Shown here: positions 29,763-59,380 of the stretch, piece after piece | How positions within the stretch are numbered: the stretch's first letter is position 1 | Layout: each line of letters starts with the position of its first letter | Assembly: GCA_027449025.1 (NCBI GenBank) | Contig: DAIDMK010000009.1 | Coordinates: 1 to 64,000, forward strand | Direction: 5' to 3' | Source: Lutibacter sp. | Lineage (GTDB): Bacteria > Bacteroidota > Bacteroidia > Flavobacteriales > Flavobacteriaceae | DNA length: 64,000 bases | The notes under the pieces: generated by a model | Databases searched by the model: none | Seen by the model: the letters and a program-made list of their open reading frames with translations, nothing else | Told to the model about the DNA's origin: nothing | Made by a program: the position numbers and the translations under genes

Positions 29763-29776
29763 GTAAAAAAAATATT

Positions 29777-30294: not shown

Positions 30295-30349
30295 AAAATA
30301 AAAGTTCTTTGACATAATAAAAGTCAAAACATCTTAAACAGCTAATCCG

Positions 30350-32400: not shown

Positions 32401-32960
32401 GGAATTCCGCGCAAAAAATGGTGCGATGCGTATTTTGTAGGGACAGGTTGCGATCTGTCCGTACATGATTTGGGTGGAAATCATGAATTCATTTCAATTT
32501 GGGATTATTTTTAATTTTTTTGGAAATGGAATTCCGCGCAAAAATTCTGCGAAGCGTATTTCGTAGGGACAGGTCGCGACCTGTCCGTACATGATTTGGG
32601 TAAAAATCATGAATTCATTTCAATTTGGGATTATTTTTAATTTTTTTGGAATTGTAATTCGAGCAAAAATTCTGCGATGCGTATTTCGTAGGGACAGGTC
32701 GCGACCTGTCCGCACATGATTTGGGTGGAAATCATGAATTCATTTCAAATTAGGGATATTTTTAAATTTTTTTTGGAATTGGAATTCCGAGCAAAAATGG
32801 TGCGATGCGTATTTCGTGGGGACAGGTCGCGACCTGTCCGCACATGATTTGGGTGGAAATCATGAATTTATTTCAAATTGGGGATATTTTTAAATTTTTT
32901 GGAATTGGAAATCTGCTCGGAGAATCATGAATTCATATTAAATAAGAATTATTATTTTTT
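32401..32960. repeat. tandem REP-like element, about 126-bp period
   Basis: Four near-identical units, each with AATTCCGCGCAAAAAT or AATTCGAGCAAAAAT, then GGACAGGTCGCGACCTGTCC, then ATGATTTGGG and AATCATGAATT. The palindromes start at 32441 (imperfect), 32567, 32692 and 32820, giving periods of 126, 125 and 128 bp. A fifth, decayed unit without the palindrome runs to about 32940. With 32191-32400 the rest of this gene-free stretch shows nothing clear beyond the array end. Confidence 0.9.
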
Positions 32961-33019
32961 CATAAATTCGATATTCAATCCACAATTGCGATAATGATTA
33001 TTTAAATTGCAATTAAATG

Positions 33020-33039
33020 GGACAGGTCGCGACCTGTCC
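33020..33039. repeat. REP-like palindrome just upstream of the transposase gene
   Basis: A perfect copy of GGACAGGTCGCGACCTGTCC, ending 15 bp before the RAYT start codon. It would lie in the 5' leader of the transposase mRNA. Confidence 0.85.
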
Positions 33040-33054
33040 GTACATGAATTTGTT

Positions 33055-33588
33055 ATGAAAAAAAGAAAAAGAAATAGAATGTTGGGGTATGATTATTCGC
33101 AAGATAATTTATATTTTATCACTATATGTGTGAAAAACATGGAATGTTGTTTTGGTGGTGTTTCCGTAAAGACAGGTTGCGATCTATCCGTATTTGAACC
33201 CAGATTAAAATCCAAAAAAATAATTTTAAATGAAATTGGAGAAATTGCAAAAGCCCAATGGAATTGGCTAGAGAAGCAATATCCTTATATAAAATTGCAT
33301 AAATTTATTGTTATGCCAAATCACATTCATTGTATTGTTGAAATTGATAGAGATTTAATTACAGATAAGCATATTAAAATAAAATCGTTGTCGGCAATAG
33401 TGGGCGCATACAAAATGACTACCTCGAAATTAATTCATTTATATGGATTTCTGGATTTTGCTTGGCATCGTTCGTTTCACGACCATATCATCAGAAACAC
33501 AAATTCGTACAATAATATTTTCAATTATATTGAGACAAACCCTGATAATTGGGATAACGACAAATATAATGGCAACAGGAAAGCATAA
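33055..33588 (+). CDS. REP-associated tyrosine transposase (RAYT, Y1/HUH family)
   Basis: The 177-residue protein starts KKRKRNRMLGYDYSQDNLYFITI, a typical RAYT N-terminus. It has the HUH motif in FIVMPNHIHCIVEI and the tyrosine helix in SYNNIFNYIETNPDNW. RAYTs act on single-stranded REP palindromes, and the adjacent REP array is the likely substrate. The ATG at 33055 is chosen by family alignment; an upstream frame start at 33007 would translate a REP copy. Residues KTGCDLSV near position 40 are encoded by a degenerate REP palindrome (33170-33189) inside the gene. Its stop is 4 bp from the convergent cas2 stop. Confidence 0.88.
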   Translation: MKKRKRNRMLGYDYSQDNLYFITICVKNMECCFGGVSVKTGCDLSVFEPRLKSKKIILNEIGEIAKAQWNWLEKQYPYIKLHKFIVMPNHIHCIVEIDRDLITDKHIKIKSLSAIVGAYKMTTSKLIHLYGFLDFAWHRSFHDHIIRNTNSYNNIFNYIETNPDNWDNDKYNGNRKA

Positions 33589-33592
33589 TAAA

Positions 33593-33922
33593 TCAAAACA
33601 ATTCTAATTGTGATGGCTGCGGTTCTTTGGGGACTTCAAATTTCCCCCAAAAATTTAAGATATTCCCAAATTGTTTGTCCGTTATTCGCAAAACGCTTAC
33701 TTTTCCCAGAGGCGGCAATAAATGGTTGATTCTTTTTTCGTGGACATCAGCGCTTTCACTGCTCGCGCAGTGCCTTGTATAAACAGAAAATTGCATCATT
33801 GTAAATCCGTCTTTAATAAGGTTTTTTCTAAATTGCTGCGCATTTCGTCTATCCTTTTTAGTTTCGGTTGGCAAATCAAAAAATACAAATAACCACATAA
33901 TTCTGTAACCATTTAACTCCAT
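33593..33922 (-). CDS. cas2: CRISPR-associated endonuclease Cas2
   Basis: The 109-residue protein has a ferredoxin-like Cas2 fold: RIMWLFVFFDLPTETKKDRR with the conserved Asp16, then QFSVYTRHC and a C-terminal strand region. Cas2 bridges Cas1 dimers during spacer acquisition. The start overlaps the cas1 stop by 10 bp, so they are co-transcribed. It is convergent with the RAYT gene, with only four bases between stops. Confidence 0.94.
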   Translation of the reverse strand: MELNGYRIMWLFVFFDLPTETKKDRRNAQQFRKNLIKDGFTMMQFSVYTRHCASSESADVHEKRINHLLPPLGKVSVLRITDKQFGNILNFWGKFEVPKEPQPSQLELF

Positions 33923-34797
33923 AAACCTGGATAATTTATTTTACGCGCTGTACCTGCATAACATTGCTGCAGTGAATTTGTGGTTCTTGTTAAAGCCACC
34001 ATTAAAGGACTTTTGATATCATCAAAATAAACTGTTTGCGTTAATACCTTTAAAAGTTCTGCCTTTATTTGTGTTGTTAATTCTTGTTCGTGAAAAGTAT
34101 TTATTATTTCAATTACTTTGGCGTCAACAATGGGGCGAAAAGGTTCCATAATATCGTCAGCCAAACAAAACGCATTGTATTTATTGTGATGATGGATGCC
34201 CAAAGTGCTTAAAAGTCCGCTTCCGGCTATGGCTCTTGCAACTGCTGCCCTTAAAATAATGTAGCCATAATTTAAAAACAAATTTGGGTAATCGCCATAG
34301 CGTTCTCTTTTAAATTCAAAATCGAAAATATGCTTCCAATAATGGGCAGCCGCAACACCTTCCCTGTTTTCTGTATCGCCACTTAAGACTTTAGATTCAT
34401 GAAAATTTAAAACCTCATAGGGTTTGTTTAATAATTGTAAGTGTTGTGCCTGATGTTTAATTTTTGTCTTTACGGTTTGTTGCCAAAGTTGTTTTTTTAG
34501 TGGTTCGGTAGCGTTAATTTGATTTGTAAATAGTTCTTGCTGAATGTGATGGTTGTCTAAATTTAGCAACATGCTGCAAGGCATATGTTTTGCGTCACAA
34601 AAAATAACTGCAACATTGTTTTCGGTTAGTTTTGTTAAGGTAGGGATTGAAACGTAAATTTCGGGATGTTCCATAACCACAAAGCCAATATCTTCAATGG
34701 GGATTGAGGCATTTCTGATTTCCGATTTTACTACAAGTTGTTCATATTGTGTTGTTAAAGAGCATTTGTTTGAGAAAAAGAGTGTTTTTTTGAGCAT
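33913..34797 (-). CDS. cas1: CRISPR-associated integrase Cas1, type II
   Basis: The 294-residue protein has the Cas1 metal-site residues: Glu146 in REGVAAAHYW, the His run 202-204 in LGIHHHNKYNAF, and Glu218 and Asp225 in DDIMEPFRPIVD. It integrates new spacers together with Cas2. In most II-C loci cas1 and cas2 follow cas9 on the same strand. Here they face the opposite way on the far side of the array and the REP region. It is complete and looks functional. Confidence 0.95.
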   Translation of the reverse strand: MLKKTLFFSNKCSLTTQYEQLVVKSEIRNASIPIEDIGFVVMEHPEIYVSIPTLTKLTENNVAVIFCDAKHMPCSMLLNLDNHHIQQELFTNQINATEPLKKQLWQQTVKTKIKHQAQHLQLLNKPYEVLNFHESKVLSGDTENREGVAAAHYWKHIFDFEFKRERYGDYPNLFLNYGYIILRAAVARAIAGSGLLSTLGIHHHNKYNAFCLADDIMEPFRPIVDAKVIEIINTFHEQELTTQIKAELLKVLTQTVYFDDIKSPLMVALTRTTNSLQQCYAGTARKINYPGLWS

Positions 34798-36428: not shown

Positions 36429-36731
36429 TTATAATAAAATGATTAAAAGTAAAATAATAATAATGGCGCCAACTGAAATATAAATACCGTTTCCGGTCGA
36501 TCTTATTTCTGCGTTAATGGCACGAACTTCTTTTCGAAGTGCTTTTTTCTCTGAACGTTCAAGTTCTGATTTGTCCATATCTTTAATTTCTTCCAAACGA
36601 TTAAGCATCACTTGAATTTCTGCAGGAATTTCTTTAGGGGCTGTTGTAGGATTTTTTTCTGAAGCGTTAACTGTTGTAAATGCACCTAATGATAACATCA
36701 TTATCATTAAATAAAGTCTTGATTTTTTCAT
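36429..36731 (-). CDS. small exported or membrane protein, unknown function
   Basis: The 100-residue protein has an N-terminal signal (KKSRLYLMIMMLSLGAFTTVNA), a charged helical middle (IQVMLNRLEEIKDMDKSELERSEKK) and a C-terminal membrane segment (IYISVGAIIIILLLIILL). The ATG at 36731 gives a proper signal peptide. It is the leftmost member of the group of genes with the shared 21-bp direct-repeat promoter (36768-36836). Confidence 0.8.
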   Translation of the reverse strand: MKKSRLYLMIMMLSLGAFTTVNASEKNPTTAPKEIPAEIQVMLNRLEEIKDMDKSELERSEKKALRKEVRAINAEIRSTGNGIYISVGAIIIILLLIILL

Positions 36732-36767
36732 TTTGTCGCTGTTTAAAATTGTTAAATAAGTTATATA

Positions 36768-36836
36768 GTAAATGTGCAATATATTGTGACTTATAAAGTT
36801 ACATATTTTTTATTATAATTTACATAATTCACACAT
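36768..36836 (-). promoter_or_regulatory. shared regulon promoter, copy 1
   Basis: In gene orientation: distal half-site TGTGAATTATGTAAA, proximal half-site AATATGTAAC 21 bp later, then 23 bp to the -7-like ACATTTAC (plus-strand 36768-36775). The TTAC cores start at 36799 and 36820 on the plus strand. It is the weakest -7 match of the eight but is in exact register. Confidence 0.75.
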
Positions 36837-39013: not shown

Positions 39014-40984
39014 TTAAGGTTTAACAACACTGCTAGCATCTAATGTAACCGCTGTTTGTGCTAATAAACTACCTTTAATGGTTGCTCCAGTATTCAAGGA
39101 AATTAAAGTTTTAGATAAGATATTTCCTTGGAATTGAACAGTTGTTCCAAGAACTGCCTGACCAGTAACTAACCAGTAAATATTTTCAGCCTTTGCGCCA
39201 TTTGTTAAAGTAATAATAGCACCATCTCCTACTGTAAGGTCTTGGGCAATTTGGAATACGAACATTGCGCAATCATCACCGCCACCATCTAGGGTTATTC
39301 CATTTGTTATTGATAGTCCTGTTCCCCATTTGTAAACACCTGCAGCCAAAGTTTGACCATTAAGATTTCCTGCCAACAGTTCAGTTGTGCCTGCTGCCAA
39401 CCCATTTCCTGTGGTAAACGCAGTATGCATGTCATTTATAGCCGTGTTTAGATTAGCAGGCGTTGGAACTGCATAACTTGGTGCGTAAATTTTACCTGTT
39501 ACCAAACTTGAGGTAGAGTATGCTGCACCGGCTGTAAGATTTAATGCAAATCCTGTTATATAGGTGGCTTCTGCTGGAAATATTCCCATATCGCCTACAA
39601 CTGAAGTTGTACCTGTTGTTGAAATTCCAGATTCTGCCAATACCACATAATTGCCAGCAGTTCCTAAATCTATTGCTGGTGTACACGTAGTGGTTGCTAT
39701 TAAACTAAAATTCGCTGTAATATTTTTATTAGCATTCATTAGTACCGTTAACGGATTGTTAGATCCTGTAGCATCACCACTCCAAGAGGTAAATTCATAC
39801 CCTGAATTTGGTGTTGCTGTTAATACTACGTTATCTCCATTGTTGTAAGTTAAATTATCTGGATTTTTCACAACAGTTCCGTTTACTGCAGTTACATTTA
39901 ATGTAAATGCGGCAATTGGACTAAAATTGGCTGTAATGTTTTTATTGCCATTCATAGTCACTGTTAATGGATTGTTAGTTCCTGTTGCATCACCGGTCCA
40001 AGAAGTAAATAGGTAACCTGTGGCTGGTGTAGGCGTAAGCACCACTATAGCTCCATGATTATAGGTAGCTTGTACTGGGTTTATTGCCACTGTTCCATTT
40101 ACTGAAGTTACCTGTAAAGTATAAGTTTTAAGTACAAAATTAGCAACTAAGGTTGTGTTTGCATTTAACGTGAATGTGTAATTTGCATTGGTTGAAACTT
40201 CAACTCCAGCCAATGTCCAGTTTACAAAGGTGTATCCAACATTTGCAGTTGCTGCTACAGGAACATTAGTTCCGGCATCAAATGAACCAGATCCATTTGT
40301 TGATCCGCCTTCAACTGGACTTGATGATAAGTTTACGGCAAATTGAGATGCAGGGATAATACTATAGTTAGCAACCAAAGTTCTGTCTGCTGTCAATAAA
40401 AATTGATAATTTGCACTTGTAGAAACTTCAATTCCGTTATCTGTCCAATTTGTAAATGTATAACCTGCATTTGGCACAGCTGTTACAGTTACTGCTGTAC
40501 CTTGTTCAAATAAACCACCACCAGCAGTTAAACCACCAATAGTTGGATTTGATGACACGTCAACAGAAAATTCTGGTAAAGGAGGAACTGTTACAAATGA
40601 CCACACATAATCTTCTTGCAACGCATTTCCTCTTTCATCTTTAGCCAAAGTTTTAATGGTACCAGTATATTCGGTGTTTTCAGCAAGTAGTGATGAAGGC
40701 GTAAAAACAGCCGTTGAATCGGTATAGGTAACCGTTCCATTAATCAAAGCACCATTAGCGCTTACAGTAAATGAAGCTCCAGTAATTGTTGAAGGATTCA
40801 TTTTTTCGTTGAAAGTTGCCGTGATTATCTGGTTTAAAGGTACATCAATATCCCCGTTTTCAGGAACTGTTGCGAACACAAGTGGGCAAAGACCATCAAC
40901 TTCATTGAAGTCATCTTCTGCACAACCTGAAAATAATAAAACAAATGCAAATGCAATTGTTGAAAGTAATTTTTTTGTGATCAT
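39014..40984 (-). CDS. ice-binding-type (DUF3494) lipoprotein with Ig-like and InlB-type repeats
   Basis: The 656-residue protein has a lipobox (LLFSGC), a bacterial Ig-like domain (about 30-133, NEKMNPSTITGASFTV), and four divergent InlB-B-type repeats of about 70 residues (about 137-426; GYTFTNWTDNG, GYLFTSWTGDATG). The C-terminal DUF3494 ice-binding domain runs from about 433 to 656 (AGNYVVLAESGISTTG; GNILSKTLISLNTGATIKG). The repeats would hold the ice-binding domain away from the cell. The DUF3494 end closely resembles the shorter protein at 45568-46380, and both have the shared promoter. Confidence 0.88.
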   Translation of the reverse strand: MITKKLLSTIAFAFVLLFSGCAEDDFNEVDGLCPLVFATVPENGDIDVPLNQIITATFNEKMNPSTITGASFTVSANGALINGTVTYTDSTAVFTPSSLLAENTEYTGTIKTLAKDERGNALQEDYVWSFVTVPPLPEFSVDVSSNPTIGGLTAGGGLFEQGTAVTVTAVPNAGYTFTNWTDNGIEVSTSANYQFLLTADRTLVANYSIIPASQFAVNLSSSPVEGGSTNGSGSFDAGTNVPVAATANVGYTFVNWTLAGVEVSTNANYTFTLNANTTLVANFVLKTYTLQVTSVNGTVAINPVQATYNHGAIVVLTPTPATGYLFTSWTGDATGTNNPLTVTMNGNKNITANFSPIAAFTLNVTAVNGTVVKNPDNLTYNNGDNVVLTATPNSGYEFTSWSGDATGSNNPLTVLMNANKNITANFSLIATTTCTPAIDLGTAGNYVVLAESGISTTGTTSVVGDMGIFPAEATYITGFALNLTAGAAYSTSSLVTGKIYAPSYAVPTPANLNTAINDMHTAFTTGNGLAAGTTELLAGNLNGQTLAAGVYKWGTGLSITNGITLDGGGDDCAMFVFQIAQDLTVGDGAIITLTNGAKAENIYWLVTGQAVLGTTVQFQGNILSKTLISLNTGATIKGSLLAQTAVTLDASSVVKP

Positions 40985-41044: not shown

Positions 41045-41112
41045 CAAAGGTGGTTACATATAAGAGTCAAAGCATTACACAATTTTGTCAAAGACTTGTA
41101 TAATTCACACAT
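41045..41112 (-). promoter_or_regulatory. shared regulon promoter, copy 2
   Basis: Half-sites TGTGAATTATACAAG and AATTGTGTAAT are 21 bp apart, then 23 bp to the -7 CACCTTTG (plus 41045-41052). The cores start at 41075 and 41096. It drives the larger ice-binding protein. Confidence 0.85.
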
Positions 41113-42480: not shown

Positions 42481-42669
42481 TTATAGTGTGGCGATAATAT
42501 TAAGGATTTCCTCTTCTGATTTCCCAAGCTTTATCTGAAGTTTTTTTACCAATTCCTCTTGTTTTCCTTCTTCAAACAACAAATCATTGTCTGTTATCTT
42601 GGCAAATTTATGCTTCAGCTTTTGTTTTGTTTCGTACCAGTTTTTTCTCATCTCTATTGCATTTTTCAT
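42481..42669 (-). CDS. CsbD-like general stress protein
   Basis: The 62-residue protein has the CsbD pattern: a start of MRKNWYETKQKLKHKFAKITDNDLLFEEGKQEELVKKLQ-type helices and a hydrophobic end. In other bacteria CsbD proteins belong to the general stress response. It is the first gene after regulon promoter copy 3 and is probably transcribed with the following lipoprotein. Confidence 0.8.
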   Translation of the reverse strand: MKNAIEMRKNWYETKQKLKHKFAKITDNDLLFEEGKQEELVKKLQIKLGKSEEEILNIIATL

Positions 42670-42708: not shown

Positions 42709-42775
42709 CAAAGGTAAGTCACATTATTATTGATGTTATTACATAACTTTTTAAATAAGTTACATAATTCACACC
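42709..42775 (-). promoter_or_regulatory. shared regulon promoter, copy 3
   Basis: Half-sites TGTGAATTATGTAAC and AGTTATGTAAT are 21 bp apart, then 23 bp to TACCTTTG (plus 42709-42716). The cores start at 42739 and 42760. This copy has a perfect TAnnTTTG -7 element. Confidence 0.88.
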
Positions 42776-43629: not shown

Positions 43630-44412
43630 TTATTTGAAGAAGGACATAATCAAAGGATCATCTGATTTTTCAAATTCCGAAAGTTTTCCTTCTGCATAAA
43701 CATAGCCTTCATGCAACATAATAATGCGGTCGGCGGTAATGCGCACACATGCAATATCATGGGTGATAATGATGGAAGAAGTCTTGTATTTTTTTTGAAT
43801 GGAATTGATCAATTCGCTTATTTCGTCGGAAGTTACCGGGTCGAGTCCAGTTGTAGGTTCATCATACAACATAATCACTGGATCTAAAATAATGGAACGC
43901 GCCAAACTTATTCGTTTTCGCATTCCGCCGGATAGTTGCGAGGGCATTTTATCTAGCACATCAGCAAGTCCAACATTGTCCAAGACTTCTTTTACTTTAT
44001 TGTCAATTTCCTGTTCATTCAGATTTCTTTTAATTCTGCGAAGCGGAAATTCTAAATTTTGTTTAACCGTCATAGAATCGTACAAAGCACCACTTTGAAA
44101 TAGAAAACCAATTTTTTTTCTTACTTCTGATAATGCTGCACCTTTTAAGGAAACCACATTTTTGCCTAGTAGGTTAATTGTTCCGCCATCAGGATTTAAC
44201 AATCGCACAATACATTTTATGAGTACCGATTTTCCTGATCCCGATTTGCCGAGAACAATTAAGTTTTCGCCATTTCGAAGTTTTAAAGAAATGTCTTTTA
44301 ACACTTCCAGTCTTCCAAAAGATTTCTTTAGGTTTTTTATTTCTATCAATGTTTCAGAAGTTATTTTTTCTTCTGAAATAATGTCTAAACTAGTTTCTTG
44401 TGAATTTTTCAT
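43630..44412 (-). CDS. mlaF: MlaF-like ABC transporter ATP-binding protein
   Basis: The 260-residue ABC ATPase has Walker A GKSGSGKSV, signature LSGGMRKRISLARSI, Walker B VIMLYDEPTTGLDP and the switch His in ITHDI. The partner MlaE and MCE protein identify it as MlaF. The ATG at 44412 overlaps the mlaE stop by four bases (ATGA), indicating translational coupling; a GTG six bases upstream is less likely. Confidence 0.93.
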   Translation of the reverse strand: MKNSQETSLDIISEEKITSETLIEIKNLKKSFGRLEVLKDISLKLRNGENLIVLGKSGSGKSVLIKCIVRLLNPDGGTINLLGKNVVSLKGAALSEVRKKIGFLFQSGALYDSMTVKQNLEFPLRRIKRNLNEQEIDNKVKEVLDNVGLADVLDKMPSQLSGGMRKRISLARSIILDPVIMLYDEPTTGLDPVTSDEISELINSIQKKYKTSSIIITHDIACVRITADRIIMLHEGYVYAEGKLSEFEKSDDPLIMSFFK

Positions 44413-45254
44413 AACCACATATCTGTTATTTGTACGGCAATCATATCTACAATAATGATAAGCAAGGACGACAAGACTACCGCTTCATTTGCGGCTTTTC
44501 CTACACTTTCAGTGCCTCTTCCGGCAGTGAATCCTTTATAACATCCTACAATGCCGATGACCGCGCCAAAAAGGAAAGTTTTTATTAAGGCAGGAAAGAA
44601 ATCTAAAAAATCGACGGACCCAAATGCCTGAAATATATATAAAACCAAACTCACATCTCCTTTTATGTTTACGCCAATCCAGCTTCCCAAAAAACCAAAT
44701 GCATCTGCAAAGAGTACAAGAATGGGTAGCATCAGTGTTGCAGCAAGCACACGTGTTACAACAAGATACCTGATAGGATTGGTTGCAGAAACTTCCATGG
44801 CGTCAATTTGCTCTGTTACTTTCATGGATCCTAATTCTGCACCCATACCTGAACCAATTTTGCCGGCACAAATTAAAGCGGTGATAATTGGGCCGATTTC
44901 ACGAATAATCGAAACGGCCACCATTCCAGGCAACATAGTGACGGCGCCAAATTTTGCCATTGCCGGCCGTGATTGAATGGTGAGCACAAGTCCCATAATA
45001 GTGCCTGTGATGATAATGAGCGGCAGTGACTTATTACCTATTTCATAACACTGGCGCAAAAACTCCTTAAATTCAAAATTTCGCGAAAAGGTTTCTTTGA
45101 ATATTTGTTTTATGAAAAGCGACATATCACCAACTTCTTCCAAAAAACCATTGGCTCTTTCTTTTTGATCCAGCGTATTTTCGCTAAGCTTAATGGAACG
45201 TGTGGTAGCGATACTTTGTGCCTTTTTTAAATCAATAATTTTTAGTTTTTTCAT
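44409..45254 (-). CDS. mlaE: MlaE-like ABC transporter permease
   Basis: The 281-residue protein has the MlaE family core: LIIITGTIMGLVLTIQS, MVAVSIIREIGPIITALICAG, GSGMGAELGSMKVTEQIDAM, and a C-terminal AANEAVVLSSLLII. It is the first gene of the Mla unit and is preceded by regulon promoter copy 4. MlaB and MlaC are not next to it. The system moves phospholipids between the membranes to maintain outer membrane asymmetry. Confidence 0.92.
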   Translation of the reverse strand: MKKLKIIDLKKAQSIATTRSIKLSENTLDQKERANGFLEEVGDMSLFIKQIFKETFSRNFEFKEFLRQCYEIGNKSLPLIIITGTIMGLVLTIQSRPAMAKFGAVTMLPGMVAVSIIREIGPIITALICAGKIGSGMGAELGSMKVTEQIDAMEVSATNPIRYLVVTRVLAATLMLPILVLFADAFGFLGSWIGVNIKGDVSLVLYIFQAFGSVDFLDFFPALIKTFLFGAVIGIVGCYKGFTAGRGTESVGKAANEAVVLSSLLIIIVDMIAVQITDMWL

Positions 45255-45362: not shown

Positions 45363-45430
45363 TAAAGGTAATTTCATATATCCCAGATTTTGTTACATAA
45401 CTTTTTAAAAAAGTTGTAAGATTCACATAT
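45363..45430 (-). promoter_or_regulatory. shared regulon promoter, copy 4 (Mla unit)
   Basis: Half-sites TGTGAATCTTACAAC and AGTTATGTAAC are 21 bp apart, then 23 bp to TACCTTTA (plus 45363-45370). The cores start at 45393 and 45414. It drives mlaE-mlaF-mlaD. Confidence 0.85.
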
Positions 45431-45567: not shown

Positions 45568-46380
45568 TTATTCTGGTTTTGTAACCGAATTCATTTGTAA
45601 AGTTACTGCTGTTTGGGCCAACATTCTTCCATTCATGGTTGCGCCTGTTTGCATATTGATACCTGTTTGTCCTAAAATGTTTCCTTCGAAATGACTTGTT
45701 GTTCCAAAAGTCACAGCGTCAGAAACTACCCAGAAAATATTTTTTGCCAAAACGCCACCTTCTAAGGTAACTCTTACTGAAGAACTCATTTTTAAAGTAC
45801 CAGCAACTTGGAAAATAAAAATATCTGTTGGGCTACCAGAAATTGTGATATCTGTTGGGATATTCACAGAGCTAGACCATTTATAAAGACCAGGTAACAA
45901 TGTTTTTCCGCCAATAGTTCCTGCGCCTAAATTCAAGTAATCTGGATTTGATCTTCCTGCAGCATCAGTATAAGCTGTTTGCATATCACCAATTGCTGAG
46001 GTTAGCATAGTGGCACTTGTAGTTTTACAGGCTGGACCTGCAGCATCTACTGAAAATACTGAACCTGTTACTTCTGTACAATTTACTACCATTGCTGCTC
46101 CGGTGATTGGGCTAGTACCAATATTTCCTGTAATAGATGATTTATAAACACTGGTAATTCCAGTTTTTGATAAAATTACGAAGTCACCTGCAACGCCTAA
46201 GTTGACTGTTTTTAATACTGCGTTTTTTGATTGTTCAAATGAAATTTCTTTGCCTAATACATAAGCTCCTTCTTGGGTTGATGCTTCATTGGTTAGTTCA
46301 GCGTCTTGATCATTTGTACAACTTCCAAGTAATACGAATAATAGCATTGCGACTATCTGGGTTATATTATTTATTTTCAT
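45568..46380 (-). CDS. ice-binding-type (DUF3494) lipoprotein
   Basis: The 270-residue protein has a lipobox (LLGSC), a short linker and a complete DUF3494 domain (about 60-268: AGDFVILSKTGITS, GNILGQTGINMQTGATMNG, ending LAQTAVTLQMNS). DUF3494 proteins fold as discontinuous beta-solenoids that bind ice. Here lipidation would keep it on the outer membrane. It shares domain and promoter type with the larger protein at 39014-40984. Confidence 0.88.
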   Translation of the reverse strand: MKINNITQIVAMLLFVLLGSCTNDQDAELTNEASTQEGAYVLGKEISFEQSKNAVLKTVNLGVAGDFVILSKTGITSVYKSSITGNIGTSPITGAAMVVNCTEVTGSVFSVDAAGPACKTTSATMLTSAIGDMQTAYTDAAGRSNPDYLNLGAGTIGGKTLLPGLYKWSSSVNIPTDITISGSPTDIFIFQVAGTLKMSSSVRVTLEGGVLAKNIFWVVSDAVTFGTTSHFEGNILGQTGINMQTGATMNGRMLAQTAVTLQMNSVTKPE

Positions 46381-46428: not shown

Positions 46429-46496
46429 CAAAGGTGACCTCATTAATTTTGGTATGGGTTACACAATTTTTTAAAATAGTTGCACAATTCACACAT
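46429..46496 (-). promoter_or_regulatory. shared regulon promoter, copy 5
   Basis: Half-sites TGTGAATTGTGCAAC and AATTGTGTAAC are 21 bp apart, then 23 bp to CACCTTTG (plus 46429-46436). The cores start at 46459 and 46480. The gap 46381-46713 shows nothing else. Confidence 0.85.
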
Positions 46497-47294: not shown

Positions 47295-47795
47295 TTATAA
47301 TTTGAAGGTAAGTCCAAATTTTCCTCCAGAGAAAGCGTTTCCGCCACCGAATTCAAGATTTAAACCAACTTTGCTGGATAAGTAATATCTGAAACCAAGT
47401 TGCGCACCAACACCAACTTCCGAACTATATCTTCCATGATAGCCATCTGGAGATGAAAAAGAATAGAACCCTAAATTTGGACCTATATAAAAATCCCATT
47501 CGTTAGACATTTCTAAGGCATGGTTAAAATGATAATTTAAATTTGCTGAAATTCCTAAAATGTTGTGGTCGTAATGATCGTTATCCCATTTCTCATCATA
47601 AGAACGATAGGAAAGTTCCCCACCAATGGTAAAATCTCTGCTAATGCCGTGATCCAATCCTAAATAGACAGGTACGCCCCATCCTGATAAACCAACACCA
47701 ACATTCAATTGATTTTGCCCAACGCCTAAAGGATTCTGGCTAAAGCCAACCGCTGAAACCATTGCCAATACTACTCCTAAAATTAATTTTTTCAT
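47295..47795 (-). CDS. outer membrane beta-barrel protein
   Basis: The 166-residue protein has a signal peptide (LILGVVLAMVSAVGFSQ) and an alternating barrel pattern typical of OmpX/OmpW-size eight-stranded proteins, ending in GGKFGLTFKL with a terminal aromatic-hydrophobic strand. The function is unknown. It is preceded by regulon promoter copy 6, about 170 bp upstream of its start. Confidence 0.82.
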   Translation of the reverse strand: MKKLILGVVLAMVSAVGFSQNPLGVGQNQLNVGVGLSGWGVPVYLGLDHGISRDFTIGGELSYRSYDEKWDNDHYDHNILGISANLNYHFNHALEMSNEWDFYIGPNLGFYSFSSPDGYHGRYSSEVGVGAQLGFRYYLSSKVGLNLEFGGGNAFSGGKFGLTFKL

Positions 47796-47968: not shown

Positions 47969-48036
47969 TAAAGGTGAAGAGTTTTAGGAAAGGGGGTGTT
48001 ACATAATTTTACGAATAAGTTATATGATTCACACAT
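47969..48036 (-). promoter_or_regulatory. shared regulon promoter, copy 6
   Basis: Half-sites TGTGAATCATATAAC and AATTATGTAAC are 21 bp apart, then 23 bp to CACCTTTA (plus 47969-47976). The cores start at 47999 and 48020. Confidence 0.85.
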
Positions 48037-48354: not shown

Positions 48355-48612
48355 CTATTTCTTAACTGCTTCAGACTTTGGCATTTTTTTTTCAACAAAT
48401 TCATTAACGTCACTCTTTAATTTGTCGAATTTTTTGTTGGCCATGTCCATATTTTTACTGAATTTTTTTTCCAGTTTTTTTTCATAGTTTTTACCCTTTT
48501 TGATAATTTTTTTTCTTGTGCCCGAACCTTTGTCCGGAGCAAATAATAGACCTGCAATGGCACCTGCAGCAACGCCCGCCAATAAACCTAACACTACTTT
48601 TCCTGAACTCAT
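48355..48612 (-). CDS. YtxH-domain protein
   Basis: The 85-residue protein has the YtxH pattern: SGKVVLGLLAGVAAGAIAGLLFAPDKGSGTRKK, a glycine-rich membrane helix followed by the APDKG motif, then a lysine-rich coiled region. YtxH proteins are general stress proteins of unknown mechanism. A second one lies at 56151-56471. Regulon promoter copy 7 is directly upstream. Confidence 0.85.
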   Translation of the reverse strand: MSSGKVVLGLLAGVAAGAIAGLLFAPDKGSGTRKKIIKKGKNYEKKLEKKFSKNMDMANKKFDKLKSDVNEFVEKKMPKSEAVKK

Positions 48613-48647: not shown

Positions 48648-48716
48648 CAAAGGTCATACCATTGTCAACTAAAGAGTTACATAATTAATGAAAATAGTTA
48701 CATGATTCACATATTA
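48648..48716 (-). promoter_or_regulatory. shared regulon promoter, copy 7
   Basis: Half-sites TGTGAATCATGTAAC and AATTATGTAAC are 21 bp apart, then 22 bp to GACCTTTG (plus 48648-48655). The cores start at 48677 and 48698. It is the only copy with a 22-bp rather than 23-bp gap. Confidence 0.82.
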
Positions 48717-48896: not shown

Positions 48897-49352
48897 CTAC
48901 ATTCTTTCCATATACCAATTCAATTGTTTTTTTATTTTTTTGAATTCGAAAATGGCTGTAATAATTTTTTGAAGCCGCACAAAAGCAGTTTCGCTTTTTA
49001 CCACGTAATCAAATGCGCCATGGTGCATACAGCTAATGGCAATGTCAATTTTGTCCTGGGAAGATAACATAACCACAGGAATATTTGGATTTACGGCTTT
49101 AATCTTGTCTAATGTTTCTATGCCATCCATCGCATTTTTGTCCACACCATCCAAGTAATAATCTAAAATTATGACATCGGGTTTGTGCGATAAATTTGCC
49201 AAACACATTTCACCTGTTGGATAAGTTTCAATATCAAAATCTGCATGTTGCAGGAATTCAATCTCCATTAATTTTAAGTAAATAGCATCATCATCTACCA
49301 GGAATAGTTTTATCTTGCCTGTCGACAGACTGGTTTTATTCTCTTTAGTCAT
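48897..49352 (-). CDS. single-domain response regulator
   Basis: The 151-residue protein is a lone receiver domain: IKLFLVDDDAIYLKLME with the acidic pair, the phosphorylation site in DVIILDYYLDG, and VMLSSQDKIDI. There is no output domain, so it acts by protein contact or as a phosphate relay. Its start overlaps the kinase stop by one base (TAATG), so the two are translationally coupled. Confidence 0.9.
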   Translation of the reverse strand: MTKENKTSLSTGKIKLFLVDDDAIYLKLMEIEFLQHADFDIETYPTGEMCLANLSHKPDVIILDYYLDGVDKNAMDGIETLDKIKAVNPNIPVVMLSSQDKIDIAISCMHHGAFDYVVKSETAFVRLQKIITAIFEFKKIKKQLNWYMERM

Positions 49353-52300
49353 TATTTATTGTTTTTAAAAGCATTAAATTCTATTTTTAATTCATCGCAA
49401 GCCTGCATACAAACTTTTTCAAGTTTTATGACCATTTCTGAAATGCCTTCAGTTTGTTGGTGTGAGATTGCATATTCCTGAACCTTTCTTGCCATATTTT
49501 CATAATCGGCACTGATACCCATGATTGAAAAGGAAGGAATCAATTTATGGACGGTTGCTTGCAATGATTTCCAGTCTTCATCAAGTAAGCTTTGTTTCAT
49601 TGTGTCAATTAATGGTGGCGTTTGTTCCAAATAAAGGGAAATCATTTCCATCATTAATACCCGATTGGATTTAGTTCGTTCATTCAAGTAATTTAAATTG
49701 GTACATTTAATCTTTACAGACTTAGCCAATCCACTTACATTAGGCGCTATTACATCAGGCTCCATTGTAACTGGGTTCTTTTTTAAAAAACCTACCATTT
49801 TACTGTACAATAACCTTTCGTCGACGGGTTTTGCTATGTAATCATTCATTCCGACCGCTTTGCATTTGGCCAGATCAACGGTGGTGACATCGGCTGTTAA
49901 GGCGATGATGGGAATATTTGAATTCATAGTGTTTCTAATGTATTCCGTGGCTTCAAATCCGTTCATTTCCGGCATTTGTAAATCCATCAAAACAAGATCG
50001 TATTTTTTGCTTTGCATTTTTTCGATGGCTATTTTCCCATTGCTGGCAATATCGCATTCAAATCCAAAATCATCCAAAAGCGTTCTCATTAATAATTGAT
50101 TGAGCGCAATATCTTCAACCACCAATACTTTTACATCAGTTAAATCATTATCCAAATCTACCATCACCAGTTCTAATTCAGCTTTCGCTTTTGTTTTTTG
50201 AAAGCTTAATGTAAAGCAAAAAGTAGAGCCTTCATTTACTTTACTTGTTACATGAATGCTTCCACCTTGGGGTTCTATCAATTGTTTAACAATTGCCAAA
50301 CCCAATCCGGTTCCTCCATACAAACGCGATGTGCCGCTTGAGGCTTGTTGAAAATTTTCAAAAATACTGTCTATTTTATTTTCAGGAATTCCAATCCCGG
50401 TATCTATAACCGAAAACTCGATGGTAACTTTTTGTTCATCCTCACTTAATAATTTAGCGCTCACCGTAATTTTTCCTTTTGTTGTGAATTTAATGGCGTT
50501 GCTTACCAAATTCATTATGATTTGGTGTAATCGCACGGGGTCGCCAACCAATACGCTTGGTATTTTTTCATCGTATTCTTTTACCAATTTTAAATTTTTT
50601 TCGTAAATTTTGGTTTCAAACAGATGTAGCATTGCGGAGATGGACAAAGACATTTTAAACGGTATTTGTTCGAATGTCATTTTTCCGGCATCTACTTTTG
50701 CCAAATCAAGGATGTCATTGATAAGCACAATTAATGCATCACCGCTAATTTTTATGGCTTTTAAATATTCTTTTTGTTTTGCAGTCAATTCTGTTTTTAA
50801 CACCACTTTTGTAAAGCCGATAATCGCATTCATCGGCGTACGAATTTCATGGCTCATATTTGACAGAAATTGTTGTTTGGCTTTCATCGCATTTTCCGCA
50901 ATTATGGTGGCTTTTTCAGCCTTAATTTTTGCTTCCTCGGCAATGACTGTAGCCAATTCAGCAAATACCATAGCTTCGTTTAGTTCTGCGGCAATCCTTT
51001 TTTGTTCAGTAACATCACGCGCAACAATTACAACCCCATCAACATTTCCATCATCATCTTTATAAACCGATCCGTTGAATAATACATCGGTAAGTTTGCC
51101 GTTTTTATGGCGAAGCGTAAGTGGTGAATTGGTAACAGAACCATTTGCGAATACTTCTTGGTAAACAGCCCGCGCTTTTTGAGGTTCGGTAAAATAATCT
51201 AAAAAATCAGTGTCTGTCAATTCATCCCTTGTAAGGCCGGTAATGTTTGTTAAAGCCTCATTCATATCTGTAATTTTACCTGCCGGACTGATGGTAACTA
51301 AAGGGTCAAGACTTGCTTCAATAAGACTTAAAGAATATTGAGAGTCTAATTTTATATCTAGGTTTGAAGCTTCAAGTTCTCTATTTGTAATGCCTTGTTT
51401 AATAGCTTCTATATTTTGTTTGGCAAGTTCTTCATTGGCAAGAACCAGTTCAGCTGCGCGTTTTTCTTTTACTTTTGTTTGAAATACAAGTTCTTCGTTA
51501 GCAATAACCAACTCAGCTGCACGTTTTTCTTTCTCTATATTTTGGAATGCAAGTTCTTCATTGGCAATAATCAATTCAGCAGCGCGTTTTTCTTTTACTT
51601 CATTTTGAAAAGCTAGTTCACCGTTGGCAATCACCAATTCTGCTGCCCGTTTTTCTTTCTCATTGTTTTGAAAGGCAAGCTCCTCATTGGCAATAATAAG
51701 TTCTGCAGACCGTTTTTCTTTCTCATCGTTTTGAAAGGCAAGTTCTTCATTGGCGATTACCAATTCAGCAGCCCTTTTTTCTTTTTCCTCATTTTGAAAT
51801 GCCAGTTCTTCATTGGCAATGACCAATTCTGCAGCCCTTTTTTCTTTTACTTCATTTTGAAAGGCAAGTTCTTCATTGGCGATTGCCAATTCAGCAGCTC
51901 GTTTTTCTTTTTCATCGTTTTGAAAGGCCAATTCTTTGTTGGCAATAATTAATTCTTCTGCACGTTTTTCTTTTTCATCGTTTTGAAAAGCCAGTTCTTT
52001 GTTGGCAATGGCCAATTCTTCTGCACGTTTCCCTTTTTCATTGTTTTGAAACTCAAGTTCTTCATTGGCAATAACCAATTCATCAGCACGTTTTCCCCTT
52101 TCTTCATTTTGAAAGGCAAGTTCTTTGTTGACTTTTCTTAAATTTATTGCCCATTTTTGAGCAGAAACATCTCTTGCAGCAGCAAAAACACCGATAATAT
52201 TACCCGCATTGTCTTTATAAACAGACGCATTGTAAGAAACATCGGTTAAGTTCCCGTTTATATGCTTTATGGTTAGCGGATAATCTATCACAAAACCTTT

Positions 52301-52525
52301 TTTAAAAACCTGAAGATAACCTTCCTGGGCTTTTATTGGATCGGTAAAATAATCAGAGAAGTTAGTGTTTATTAGTTTTTCTCTAATAACACCTGTTACT
52401 TTTATGGAAGCTTCATTAACGTCAGTTATTTTCCCTTCCAAGCTGATGGTTACAAATGGATCTAAACTTGCTTCTATTAAGCTTCTGGTGTATTGAGAGT
52501 TATTTATTATTGCTTGTGGTTCCAT
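49352..52525 (-). CDS. hybrid sensor histidine kinase with two PAS domains and a 21-residue repeat coiled coil
   Basis: The 1057-residue protein has no clear signal peptide or membrane segment and is likely cytoplasmic. The order is PAS (about 10-125), coiled coil of 11 full 21-residue repeats (133-363), PAS (about 390-510), HisKA with His559 (SHEIRTPMNAI), HATPase (SRLYGGTGLGLAIV), receiver with Asp848 (LVLMDLQMPEMNGFEA) and HPt with His993 (TVHKLIPSFS). It can therefore run a full internal phosphorelay and may pass phosphate to the coupled receiver protein. The AraC-type gene lies directly upstream. The signal is unknown. Confidence 0.92.
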   Translation of the reverse strand: MEPQAIINNSQYTRSLIEASLDPFVTISLEGKITDVNEASIKVTGVIREKLINTNFSDYFTDPIKAQEGYLQVFKKGFVIDYPLTIKHINGNLTDVSYNASVYKDNAGNIIGVFAAARDVSAQKWAINLRKVNKELAFQNEERGKRADELVIANEELEFQNNEKGKRAEELAIANKELAFQNDEKEKRAEELIIANKELAFQNDEKEKRAAELAIANEELAFQNEVKEKRAAELVIANEELAFQNEEKEKRAAELVIANEELAFQNDEKEKRSAELIIANEELAFQNNEKEKRAAELVIANGELAFQNEVKEKRAAELIIANEELAFQNIEKEKRAAELVIANEELVFQTKVKEKRAAELVLANEELAKQNIEAIKQGITNRELEASNLDIKLDSQYSLSLIEASLDPLVTISPAGKITDMNEALTNITGLTRDELTDTDFLDYFTEPQKARAVYQEVFANGSVTNSPLTLRHKNGKLTDVLFNGSVYKDDDGNVDGVVIVARDVTEQKRIAAELNEAMVFAELATVIAEEAKIKAEKATIIAENAMKAKQQFLSNMSHEIRTPMNAIIGFTKVVLKTELTAKQKEYLKAIKISGDALIVLINDILDLAKVDAGKMTFEQIPFKMSLSISAMLHLFETKIYEKNLKLVKEYDEKIPSVLVGDPVRLHQIIMNLVSNAIKFTTKGKITVSAKLLSEDEQKVTIEFSVIDTGIGIPENKIDSIFENFQQASSGTSRLYGGTGLGLAIVKQLIEPQGGSIHVTSKVNEGSTFCFTLSFQKTKAKAELELVMVDLDNDLTDVKVLVVEDIALNQLLMRTLLDDFGFECDIASNGKIAIEKMQSKKYDLVLMDLQMPEMNGFEATEYIRNTMNSNIPIIALTADVTTVDLAKCKAVGMNDYIAKPVDERLLYSKMVGFLKKNPVTMEPDVIAPNVSGLAKSVKIKCTNLNYLNERTKSNRVLMMEMISLYLEQTPPLIDTMKQSLLDEDWKSLQATVHKLIPSFSIMGISADYENMARKVQEYAISHQQTEGISEMVIKLEKVCMQACDELKIEFNAFKNNK
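51437..52129 (-). repeat. 63-bp tandem repeats encoding the kinase coiled coil
   Basis: Eleven full units and one partial unit encode the pattern NEELAFQNEEKEKRAAELVIA. Each unit is 21 residues, exactly three heptads, so copy number can change without breaking the coiled-coil phase. Confidence 0.92.
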
Positions 52526-52578: not shown

Positions 52579-53160
52579 TTACTGGTCACTAATCTGGTTT
52601 CCAATTTCCTCGATAGGACTTCTCCTTTTATTTTTCATTTGTTTAAAATGGGAAGGTGAGAGTCCTGTAACTTTTTTAAACTGATTGGATAAATGTGCCA
52701 CACTGCTGTAATTCATTTTCCAGGCGATTTCGGTAATATTTAATTCGCCATAAATAATTAATTCTTTGATGCGTTCAATTTTATGACCAATGATAAATTG
52801 CTCGATGGTAGTTCCTTGCACTTCTGAAAATAAATTTGCCAGATAGGTGTAATCGTGATTTAATTTTTCACTTAAATAGTCGGAGAAATTTACTTTGATG
52901 GTTTCTTCAGAATAATGAACCATCTCAACAATCACATTTTTTATTTTTTCAATCAACATCGCTCTTTTGTCGTCCATCAATTCAAGTCCAGAGTCTAATA
53001 GTTCCAGTTTTAACTGAGCTCGCTGCACTTCGGTAAGATCTTCCATGATATCAACTTCGCCTAAATCGACTACAATAAAATGAAGTTTAAACTTTTTTAA
53101 TGCATTTGATACCGCTATTTTGCAACGGTTGCTTACCATGTATTTGATGTATAACTTCAC
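52579..53160 (-). CDS. AraC-family transcriptional regulator
   Basis: About 193 residues. The N-terminal half (KLYIKYMVSNRCKIAVSNALKK, FIVVDLGEVDIMED) is of a type common in Bacteroidetes and is not the arabinose-binding cupin. The C-terminal half has the two AraC helix-turn-helix units (YTYLANLFSEVQGTTIEQFI; NITEIAWKMNYSSVAHLSNQFKKVTGLSPSHFK). I prefer the GTG start at 53160 because it keeps the conserved LYIKYMVS block; ATG 53139 is an alternative. It precedes the hybrid kinase and is the best candidate for the factor binding the shared direct-repeat promoters. Confidence 0.85.
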   Translation of the reverse strand: MKLYIKYMVSNRCKIAVSNALKKFKLHFIVVDLGEVDIMEDLTEVQRAQLKLELLDSGLELMDDKRAMLIEKIKNVIVEMVHYSEETIKVNFSDYLSEKLNHDYTYLANLFSEVQGTTIEQFIIGHKIERIKELIIYGELNITEIAWKMNYSSVAHLSNQFKKVTGLSPSHFKQMKNKRRSPIEEIGNQISDQ

Positions 53161-53208
53161 AAGTGTAATTTTTTTGCAAGGTACATTAAACACCTTATAA
53201 TAAAACAT

Positions 53209-53672
53209 TTATTGCTAAAAATAAAATTGATCAAGATTGTGTTTTTAAATGGAAAACCACTTATTATTTTAAAGATGGGCCTTTAATATTATAATAATTT
53301 TCTTTACTGTTTAACGCATCAAAACAGGTAATTTTACCTGTTCTAAATTGTTTAAAAATTTTAAAACTCCATTTACTTTATGTTTATAAATAAGAGACGT
53401 TGGCGTTTATTATTTCGGGATTTACATTCAAATAAACGCCGTCATCTCACTAAGTCACAATCAATCTAAATTTATAAAAAATTATCAAAATTGTAAAATA
53501 TGCTTTAGGGTTGATTATATATTATTTTATGCCAAGACTTTATTTTTATGGAGTCCTAAACCATCATTTAACGTATTGTTTTAAATTAAATTTTTAATTT
53601 ATATGAATCTTTTGGGGTTATAAGATTCATATTCTCAATACAGGCCTTGCAATATTTTTCGTATTGTGCTGG
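53209..53672. other. gap upstream of the AraC-type gene, with one palindrome
   Basis: No coding frame is convincing here. AACAGGTAATTTTACCTGTT at 53323-53342 is a perfect 20-bp palindrome about 165 bp upstream of the regulator start; it could be an operator or a weak terminator. Confidence 0.45.
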
Positions 53673-54137
53673 CTAATGTTTTTTTCCTTTTTTGTTTCCG
53701 TTACCTTTTGATTTACCGTTTCCGTTACCTTTTGACTTATAGTTACCGTTTCCTGGTTTGTTCCCAATATTTTTTTGTGGGGCGCCACGATAGCCTTTGG
53801 CATATTTAACTTTATGTTGTTTATAATAAGTATAAGGTGCTTTGCCACGATAATCGGTCAATACCACTTTATAGCCATTATACAAATCATAATTTCTATA
53901 TTGATTTGGAAGATATTTTCTGTGCACCCATGTGTTTCCAGAATAATAAATAAATCTGGATGTTTGAACATCATAATAAGAATCAACATCTGGAAGATAA
54001 TAATATCGTACATCTGAATAACCTGATGGACCCCAAAGCGGCGGTGTGCCAATGTTTACATTTACTGAAATTTGCGCCTGCATTTCGCTTGCGAAAAATA
54101 GACCTATTCCTATTGCTATAAATTTTAATGCTTTCAT
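53673..54137 (-). CDS. secreted basic protein of unknown function
   Basis: The 154-residue protein has a signal peptide (KFIAIGIGLFFASEMQAQ), a tyrosine-rich middle (DVRYYYLPDVDSYYDVQTSRFIYY) and a low-complexity basic C-terminus rich in Gly, Asn and Lys (from about 125). The Tyr/Trp-rich middle resembles small periplasmic proteins seen near stress genes in Bacteroidetes. It has regulon promoter copy 8. An overlapping frame at 53627-53848 is a shadow of its repetitive end. Confidence 0.78.
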   Translation of the reverse strand: MKALKFIAIGIGLFFASEMQAQISVNVNIGTPPLWGPSGYSDVRYYYLPDVDSYYDVQTSRFIYYSGNTWVHRKYLPNQYRNYDLYNGYKVVLTDYRGKAPYTYYKQHKVKYAKGYRGAPQKNIGNKPGNGNYKSKGNGNGKSKGNGNKKGKKH

Positions 54138-54195: not shown

Positions 54196-54262
54196 CAAAG
54201 TTGCGAAGCATAAAACACAAATGTGTTACACAACTTTAGGCAAAAGTTGCATAATTCACACT
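54196..54262 (-). promoter_or_regulatory. shared regulon promoter, copy 8
   Basis: Half-sites TGTGAATTATGCAAC and AGTTGTGTAAC are 21 bp apart, then 23 bp to CAACTTTG (plus 54196-54203). The cores start at 54226 and 54247. Confidence 0.82.
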
Positions 54263-57299: not shown

Positions 57300-57968
57300 A
57301 TGAGAATTTTAATAGTAGAAGACGAACCTGGAATTTCCAATTTCTTGAAACAAGGCTTGCAAGAAGAATCTTTTTCTGTTGATATTGCAGAGAACGGCAA
57401 CAAAGGTCTTCAAATGGCACTTTCTGGAGATTATGATTTGTTGCTGTTGGATTGGATGATCCCAGGCATTAGCGGAATTGAAGTTTGTCGCTACTTCAGA
57501 AAAGAATTTAAAGAAACTCCCATAATTTTTTTGACGGCCAAAGACACGGTTGATGAAACTATTTTCGGATTGCAGGCAGGTGCCAACGATTATATTAAAA
57601 AACCCTTTCATTTTGAAGAACTTTTGGAACGAATCAAAGTTCAATTAAGACCAAAATCTGGCGAACATTCTGTTTTTATTTTAGGGAATATTACTTTAAA
57701 TACCGCCAATCATCAGGTTTTAAAAAATGGAGAAGAAATTAGTTTGACACAAAAAGAGTTTTCGCTTTTGGAATTTTTGATGCGAAATAAAGGAACTGTT
57801 TGTCGTAGAACCCGAATTATTGAAAGTGTTTGGGACATCCATTTTGAATATAATACGGGTGTTATTGATGTGTACATCAATGCATTAAGAAAAAAGCTAA
57901 GGTTGCGGGATGATGAACATTATATTCAAACCGTGAGGGGAATTGGTTATATGGCAAAAGAACTTTAA
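57300..57968 (+). CDS. OmpR-family response regulator
   Basis: The 222-residue protein has a receiver domain (RILIVEDEPGISNFLKQGL, phosphorylation Asp in DLLLLDWMIPG) and a winged-helix output domain (GEEISLTQKEFSLLEFLMRNKG, TGVIDVYINALRKKL, TVRGIGYMAK). It resembles CusR/QseB-type regulators. The cognate kinase starts 23 bp downstream. Targets are unknown. Confidence 0.93.
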   Translation: MRILIVEDEPGISNFLKQGLQEESFSVDIAENGNKGLQMALSGDYDLLLLDWMIPGISGIEVCRYFRKEFKETPIIFLTAKDTVDETIFGLQAGANDYIKKPFHFEELLERIKVQLRPKSGEHSVFILGNITLNTANHQVLKNGEEISLTQKEFSLLEFLMRNKGTVCRRTRIIESVWDIHFEYNTGVIDVYINALRKKLRLRDDEHYIQTVRGIGYMAKEL

Positions 57969-57991
57969 CAAGAGTCACATAAATTAAATAG

Positions 57992-59380
57992 ATGATTTTA
58001 AGTTTCAGAAATAGAATTGCACTGCATTATATGATTGCCACAGCCCTCATTGTTGCTGTTATTTTTAGTGTGGTCTTTTTTGTAGTTCAGGAAACGGTTT
58101 ATCAAAATTTGGATAGTGGTCTTACTTATGAAGCCGAAAAGCACACAGGTGAAATTAAAATTGTTGGTGACAGCATTTATTTTATAAACAAGGAAGAATG
58201 GGCTGAAATAGAGCATCGTGAAATTCAGGTAAATCCAGTTTTTATTCAAATTTTTGATAAAAGTGGAAATTTGATGGACAAATCTCCCAACCTTAAAAGC
58301 AATCAGCTCTCATTTAGTGAACAAGAATATTTTGGTGGACGTTTCAATAAAAAATTGGACAATCGTCCTATTCGTCAAATTCAAATTCCCATTGAGCAAA
58401 ACGGAAAAATAATAGGCTATGTGGTTGCTGCAATGTCTTTGGAATCATCAAACATGGTGTTTTTGAAATTAAGGAAGGTGCTTTTTGTTTCCTATTTGAT
58501 ACTTTTAGTGGGTTTGTATTATGTTTCAAGATTTTTGGCTGGAAGAAGTATTATTCCAATTAAAAATATTATTGAAACAACCAACAGAATAACAAAAAAC
58601 AATTTGAATGAAAGGGTAGAATTACCGGCTCATAAAGATGAGTTATTCCACTTGTCTGCCAGCATCAATGAATTGTTGCAACGTATAGAAAATGCTATTG
58701 AAAAAGAGCGCCAATTCACTTCAGACGCTTCGCATGAATTGCGAACCCCACTGTCATCCTTGCGAGGAACTTTGGAGGTTTTAATAAGAAAACCGAGAGA
58801 ACAATTGGAGTACCAAGAAAAAATAATATACAGTCTGTCTGAAATAGATAGGATGACCACGATTATTGAGCAATTGTTGCTGCTGGCAAGATTGGATTCA
58901 AATGCTAACTCAAATAATCTAGTGTCAAAAACAACAATTTACCAACCATTGCCAATCCTTATTGATGAAATTTTATCGCGTTATAGAAATGAAATTTCCG
59001 CCAAGAATTTAACCTTGGATTTGGATATGGAAACAACAAATGAATCTTTGGTACAACAATATTATGCCAATCTAATTTTGGACAATATGATTGGTAATGC
59101 CATAAAATATGCGAAGGAAAATTCCAGCCTACAGATTCTTGTTTCTGATACTGAAAGCGGGATTGAATGCAAAATTACAGATGAAGGCATTGGAATTAAA
59201 AAAGAAGATATTGAGAAACTTTTCAATCCGTTTTTTAGGTCGGATGCCCTAAATCATAAAGAAATTTTTGGAAATGGACTCGGACTTTCAATTGCCAAAA
59301 AAGCTGCTGATGCCATCAATGCAAAACTATTTGTAGAAAGTGAATTGGGTGTTGGTACCAAAATTACAATCGTTTTTTAA
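57992..59380 (+). CDS. HAMP-type sensor histidine kinase
   Basis: The 462-residue kinase has two membrane segments (about 12-32 and 158-178) flanking a periplasmic sensor of about 125 residues, a HAMP region, and HisKA with TSDASHELRTPLSSLRGT. The HATPase domain has DNMIGNAIKYAKE and GNGLGLSIAKK. It pairs with the regulator just upstream. The periplasmic domain gives no clear ligand. Confidence 0.92.
   Translation: MILSFRNRIALHYMIATALIVAVIFSVVFFVVQETVYQNLDSGLTYEAEKHTGEIKIVGDSIYFINKEEWAEIEHREIQVNPVFIQIFDKSGNLMDKSPNLKSNQLSFSEQEYFGGRFNKKLDNRPIRQIQIPIEQNGKIIGYVVAAMSLESSNMVFLKLRKVLFVSYLILLVGLYYVSRFLAGRSIIPIKNIIETTNRITKNNLNERVELPAHKDELFHLSASINELLQRIENAIEKERQFTSDASHELRTPLSSLRGTLEVLIRKPREQLEYQEKIIYSLSEIDRMTTIIEQLLLLARLDSNANSNNLVSKTTIYQPLPILIDEILSRYRNEISAKNLTLDLDMETTNESLVQQYYANLILDNMIGNAIKYAKENSSLQILVSDTESGIECKITDEGIGIKKEDIEKLFNPFFRSDALNHKEIFGNGLGLSIAKKAADAINAKLFVESELGVGTKITIVF

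Follow-up and report, generated by a model that had tools for sequence, protein, structure and literature searches.

Among the activators of the AraC/XylS family, AraC carries an N-terminal sugar-binding domain while MarA and SoxS have none. Response regulators of the LytTR type bind pairs of 9-bp direct repeats spaced by about 21 bp, and the ordinary −7 box of Bacteroidota promoters reads TAnnTTTG. The Bacteroidota are not known to have SigB, RpoS or PhyR, and the control of general stress responses in these bacteria is an open question. In Bacteroides the predicted motifs of AraC-type HTCS regulators are direct repeats lying 21 bp apart on average (PMC3878776). In the biofilm of Flavobacterium psychrophilum three AraC-family genes are reported to be up-regulated, without a link to the present regulator (PMC5787105). 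No published description of this regulator or its motif was recognised among the matches listed in a literature search. The locus considered here lies in a 64,000-nucleotide stretch of a Lutibacter genome (contig DAIDMK010000009.1 of assembly GCA_027449025.1), hereafter the window.

The AraC-type regulator and its candidate promoter sites

The regulator is encoded on the minus strand at 52579..53160 as a protein of 193 amino acids with a GTG start, an assignment based on Pfam, homologue starts, a predicted model and fold matches. The open frame extends further, to 53208 (52579-53208, minus strand), and as the first residues of the homologues are [M]KLYIKYMVS the likely start is the GTG at 53160, in agreement with the coordinates (52579-53160) given in an earlier, sequence-only reading of this DNA. 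An HMA-like domain occupies about residues 1-63 and an AraC-type DNA-binding domain about residues 64-180, the latter matching HTH_18 at 3e-16 (60 bits, cut-off 33.6) and HTH_AraC at 1.8e-7. In the predicted model (mean pLDDT 80) residues 64-180 resemble AraC-type DNA-binding domains, with 6swi at Z 14.2 over 116 residues and MarA (1bl0) at Z 12.8. The protein thus has the C-terminal AraC-type helix-turn-helix of the AraC/XylS family, given the HTH_18 score above cut-off and the 6swi fold match. A search of its own genome returned the regulator itself and three weak AraC-type matches of 28-30% identity, all outside the window, in keeping with the earlier observation that this is the only AraC-type gene there.

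As that reading had also noted, the gene lies directly upstream of a hybrid histidine kinase gene (49352..52525, minus strand) and then a stand-alone receiver gene (48897..49352, minus strand), both on the same strand, with 53 bp between the AraC and kinase genes. The kinase comprises PAS, coil repeats, PAS, HisKA, HATPase and receiver segments together with a weak Hpt match below the Pfam cut-off; the receiver protein, assigned by Pfam, has no DNA-binding domain in the Pfam scan. The coil units of the kinase are encoded by 63-bp tandem repeats at 51350-52216, a kind of sequence at which short-read assemblies may break, so that the neighbouring AraC gene may go missing from drafts; regulator fragments lie at contig ends in genomes G253, G259 and G261.

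The window holds eight minus-strand sites with the consensus GTGTGAATyATGTAAC-N12-TTrTGTAAC, and the 21-bp half-site spacing claimed for eight promoters was confirmed in 8/8. A −7 box (TTTG/TTTA) begins 25 bp after the 37-mer in seven sites and 24 bp after it in one. When at most two mismatches are allowed, the upstream-half consensus recovers seven of the eight and nothing else in the window, where 0.29 matches are expected and the largest count in 100 shuffles was 2. With a matrix built from the eight, the sites themselves score 39-50 bits compared with 5.1 for the next best place in the window and a maximum of 7.9 in three shuffles. Site 1 (36798..36834) precedes an ORF at 36429-36779, site 2 (41074..41110) an ice-binding-like protein (39014-40984) and site 3 (42738..42774) a CsbD-like gene (42481-42669; Pfam CsbD E 1.9e-8, below the CsbD cut-off). 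Site 4 (45392..45428) lies before 44409-45254, presumably MlaE-like, and the two genes that follow it, site 5 (46458..46494) before a second ice-binding-like protein (45568-46380), site 6 (47998..48034) 202 bp before an outer-membrane beta-barrel protein (47295-47795) and site 7 (48676..48712) before a YtxH gene (48355-48612). No site directly precedes the AraC gene in the window, the nearest being site 8 (54225..54261) before ORF 53673-54137, the preceding gene, with 512 bp between its end and the AraC start. The intervening 512 nucleotides upstream of the AraC gene (53161-53672) contain no motif site; as RNA this stretch is predicted to fold better than shuffles (z −4.0), with strong hairpins.

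Elsewhere in the same genome, a pattern of 16 fixed bases allowing 0-1 mismatch gave 16 matches, nine exact (eight of them in the window) and seven with one mismatch, compared with no match when the spacer was made wrong by one base. Seven of the eight matches outside the window have a plausible gene downstream at the right distance, the targets being YtxH followed by a holin-like ORF, a ribosome-hibernation-type protein, a CsbD-like protein, a ferritin-like protein, two lipoprotein-like ORFs and a 79-aa ORF. The match at C6:477 looks spurious and was set aside.

Other features of the window include, at 25279-34797, a large ORF (1472 aa), an array with a 66-bp period (30376-32206) and Cas1- and Cas2-like ORFs, which we take to be a type II CRISPR-Cas locus. 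At 32440-33588 repeated near-palindromic GGGACAGGT...ACCTGTCC elements lie beside a transposase-like ORF that presumably resembles a REP-associated transposase. An OmpR-type response regulator and a HAMP histidine kinase are encoded near the block containing the AraC gene (57300-59380).

Association of regulator and sites across the Bacteroidota

Orthologues 74-92% identical to the regulator were followed at 80 loci, the best 80 of 333, with taxon labels that include Lutibacter, Flavobacterium and Bacteroidales; as a good number of them are MAGs, part of this labelling may be wrong. A matrix built from 85 sites, trained on Lutibacter and G154 sites, found 201 sites of at least 15 bits in 70/80 loci, among which at least L184 and L186 come from matrix-training genomes and near-copies exist (e.g. 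L195 and L198); a single Markov-shuffled version of every locus gave no site, nor did the reversed sequence. At ten of the 80 loci, seven of them Flavobacterium, nothing in the DNA searched reaches 15 bits. A matrix-free count of TGTAA pairs gave 89 at 21 bp, in 42/80 loci, compared with 3-40 at the other distances from 8 to 44, where smaller maxima fall at 18 bp (40) and 33 bp (33). The box TTTG/TTTA, which is not part of the matrix, starts exactly 26 bp after the 35-mer in 173/201 sites, with no conserved −33 element between the sites and the −7 box.

The fixed spacing to the −7 region and the lack of a conserved −33 element between could be read as pointing to recognition by an alternative sigma factor and not by an activator. 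We regard this reading as highly improbable, since two repeats 21 bp apart extend further upstream than would be expected of a single sigma factor and the −7 box is like the ordinary TAnnTTTG of the Bacteroidota.

In 48 loci the gene that a simple rule places first after a site is that of the regulator itself, the other first-gene groups, named partly by eye, being ice-binding-like, CsbD-like, OmpA-like, Dps-like, YtxH, lmo0937-type and receiver proteins. Genes of the window block in which the AraC gene lies recur in 3-17/80 loci, compared with 0-1/80 for each of the other 16 window ORFs tested.

Among 30 Lutibacter genomes exact sites number 9-18 in ten genomes and 0-2 in 20, with none in the reversed-read control of all 30. 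A close regulator orthologue (at least 84% over the matched part) is present in nine of the ten motif-rich genomes, in three of them as fragments at contig ends, and in 0/20 of the motif-poor ones, where the best match is 46%. In an rpoB tree of 28 genomes, from which the window's own genome (no rpoB match) and G264 (fragment only) are absent, nine motif-rich genomes form one side of one branch. They therefore represent one evolutionary event, and the Lutibacter co-occurrence was dropped as proof of a link in itself. The tenth motif-rich genome, G270, is without the regulator; one of its contigs ends 138 bp after a site-8-like site and another starts at a site-6-like site, breaks that point to a likely assembly gap, and it was not retained as a counterexample. 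In G274, which is outside the clade in the rpoB tree, two sites precede genes that also bear sites in the motif clade; our guess is contamination of the bin. Three Lutibacter genomes (L158, L159 and L160) contain a 67-70% AraC paralogue with a site before a DUF326-type protein, Pfam having been run on one of the three loci; DUF326-type proteins are copper-binding four-helix bundles.

The pattern extends to more distant homologues. At 26 Flavobacteriaceae loci with homologues of 54-66% identity the 21-spaced repeat is present in 21, other spacings reaching at most seven, the repeat pattern having been picked after some of these sites had been seen; a −7-like box is found in many of them. Control loci retrieved via the motif were judged unfair and replaced by arbitrary stretches of the same genomes. 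When 20 of the 26 loci were compared with 20 such stretches (L097 and L106-L110 being left out to match their number), every locus outscored every stretch (U=400, p=3.4e-8) and the repeat was present in 17/20 loci vs 1/20 stretches. At homologues of 33-46% identity it was found in 4/17 loci.

In a class-wide set of 396 Bacteroidia genomes, searched with a strict pattern that includes the −7 box, sites were present in 24/30 genomes with a close orthologue (E 1.1e-80 or lower; 20 families), in 15/55 genomes at E 1.3e-79 to 2.3e-60 and in 18/311 others, with two sites in all 396 genomes in the reversed-read control. The co-occurrence of regulator family and motif that the sequence-only reading had offered as a check is therefore found, at 24/30 compared with 33/366 for the rest (Fisher p=1.5e-17), though as the strict pattern was drawn from orthologue-locus sites the figure is biased towards genomes with an orthologue. 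Six close-orthologue genomes (G322, G531, G483, G621, G517 and G497) have no strict site, though in three of them a less strict match (15-31 bits) adjoins the regulator gene.

That reading had also held that sites in genomes lacking the regulator would refute it, and here the outcome is mixed, with one clear unexplained case and a few others with 2-4 sites. G511 has eight strict sites, no regulator homologue at E≤1e-8 and no match to the kinase PAS domain at E≤1e-12, so another binder may exist. The sites in G511 (L389-L392) have an unusually conserved spacer and −7 region and lie before YtxH and other genes. No regulator homologue at E≤1e-8 was found in G391 (three sites) or in G425 and G398 (two each), while G362 (four sites) has homologues only of 48% or less and G111 (three sites) one of 54%. 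G467, with 17 sites and outside both orthologue classes, has a contig that breaks off within the coil-repeat region of a kinase relative, which points to a likely assembly gap, and it was rejected as a counterexample.

The G511 sites bear on the suggestion that another regulator binds these promoters, either a distant one, for example of LytTR type, or the nearby OmpR-type protein (57300-57968), with the AraC gene one of its targets. The geometry of LytTR sites is matched equally well by 9-bp repeats separated by 12 bp, the AraC gene is itself often preceded by a site, and a DNA-binding response regulator is present in the window. Against this, the OmpR-type gene, like the HAMP kinase gene close to it, occurs in 0/80 orthologue loci, no LytTR domain was found in the 20 window ORFs scanned, and in genera whose AraC homologues do not have this kinase and receiver as neighbours the sites still adjoin the homologue, which a distant regulator does not predict. 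On balance this suggestion is improbable.

The regulator gene and the sites occur together in many Bacteroidota groups, and the proposal that the AraC-type protein is the likely activator of the shared promoters is well supported by this co-occurrence and by co-localisation. Judged from sequence, the AraC-type protein very probably binds the paired half-sites and activates envelope- and stress-type promoters from a −7 box at fixed distance. On the basis of the sites, their geometry, co-occurrence and co-localisation we infer binding, activation and a two-subunit mode, and from the target types a stress role. The regulator would occupy two direct-repeat half-sites 21 bp apart on one helix face, probably as two subunits, and would then activate transcription from the −7 box downstream without a conserved −33 element, probably including that of its own gene in many relatives. 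The putative regulon would be of envelope and stress type, comprising ice-binding-like, OmpA-like and beta-barrel proteins, YtxH, CsbD, lmo0937-type peptides and ferritin/Dps-like and ribosome-hibernation-type proteins.

The HMA-like domain and the kinase as possible inputs

The N-terminal half of the regulator is predicted to resemble a copper-chaperone (HMA) domain. In the model the elements of residues 1-63 follow the order beta-alpha-beta-beta-alpha-beta, as in the ferredoxin-like fold, and match HMA copper-chaperone structures at Z 7-8, a middling score for the tool at which other ferredoxin-like folds score alike. Among the HMA matches is 2xmv (Z 7.9, 59 aligned, rmsd 2.2), and the prephenate dehydratase 2qmw also reaches Z 7.9; Pfam gave no HMA match at E≤1. 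HMA copper chaperones bind metal through a CxxC motif, in place of which the window regulator and all 80 orthologues have SxxC. CxxC is present in 18 homologues of 34-54% identity. The 21-spaced repeat occurs in 48/70 loci with SxxC vs 6/18 with CxxC, and a site of 31 bits is present at the CxxC locus L374, so the split was rejected as a clean predictor of sites. The HMA-like domain may itself be the direct input.

The sequence-only reading had proposed a chain from signal through phosphorelay to the AraC protein, in which the hybrid kinase phosphorylates the receiver protein and this directly switches the regulator on, a step that would be added to, and is compatible with, activation by the AraC-type protein. 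The part concerning gene order stands. In 80/80 loci the AraC gene is followed, on its own strand, by a kinase match whose best segment starts within 1.1 kb at 74 loci and at a distance of 3.4-6.9 kb at the other six, and a receiver match is found in 65/80, so that the recurring order ties kinase and receiver to the AraC gene. The kinase moreover has HisKA, a receiver domain and the weak Hpt match. The phosphate route is less secure, as Pfam finds no receiver domain in the AraC protein, whose input half looks HMA-like, and no route for phosphate to it is visible. Homologues with similar sites also exist without this kinase adjoining, the 26 loci of 54-66% homologues having no match to the window kinase or receiver within about 1.5 kb on each side, and kinase and receiver could target something else. 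The full chain is thus rather doubtful.

Comparison with known regulatory systems

The analysis names one regulator, a likely binding site, a promoter geometry and a target list, and since gene and sites are present in culturable species (several Flavobacterium isolates and Labilibaculum sp. K2S) the idea is directly testable. A clear signalling question arises from the HMA-like domain in the input half of the protein and from the kinase gene that recurs next to the regulator. It is conceivable, if somewhat short of an even chance, that the three-gene module of HMA-like/AraC regulator, hybrid kinase and receiver is a widespread, horizontally moving general- or envelope-stress system of the Bacteroidota in which an activator takes the role of SigB or RpoS, with the copper-chaperone-like domain and its single cysteine (SxxC) as a redox or metal input. 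The CsbD-, YtxH-, ferritin/Dps- and hibernation-factor-type targets are like those of the SigB or RpoS general stress regulons, from which the present case differs in its proposed control by an AraC-type protein rather than a sigma factor.

The predicted fold of residues 1-63 may be akin to that of the HMA copper chaperones Atx1, CopZ and GolB, from which the domain departs in having SxxC for CxxC, no Pfam HMA match and a fusion to a DNA-binding domain. With AraC, MarA, SoxS and Rob the regulator shares the predicted DNA-binding fold and a putative proximal half-site beside the core promoter but, unlike these activators, it has an N-terminal HMA-like domain. The likeness to the Bacteroides HTCS lies in the AraC-type DNA-binding domain, the predicted direct repeats 21 bp apart on average and the involvement of a kinase (PMC3878776). 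An HTCS is a single polypeptide that unites the sensor, kinase, receiver and AraC domains. In the present locus three separate genes encode the kinase, the receiver and the AraC protein, which itself has no receiver domain, and the putative targets belong to envelope and stress functions rather than to polysaccharide use.
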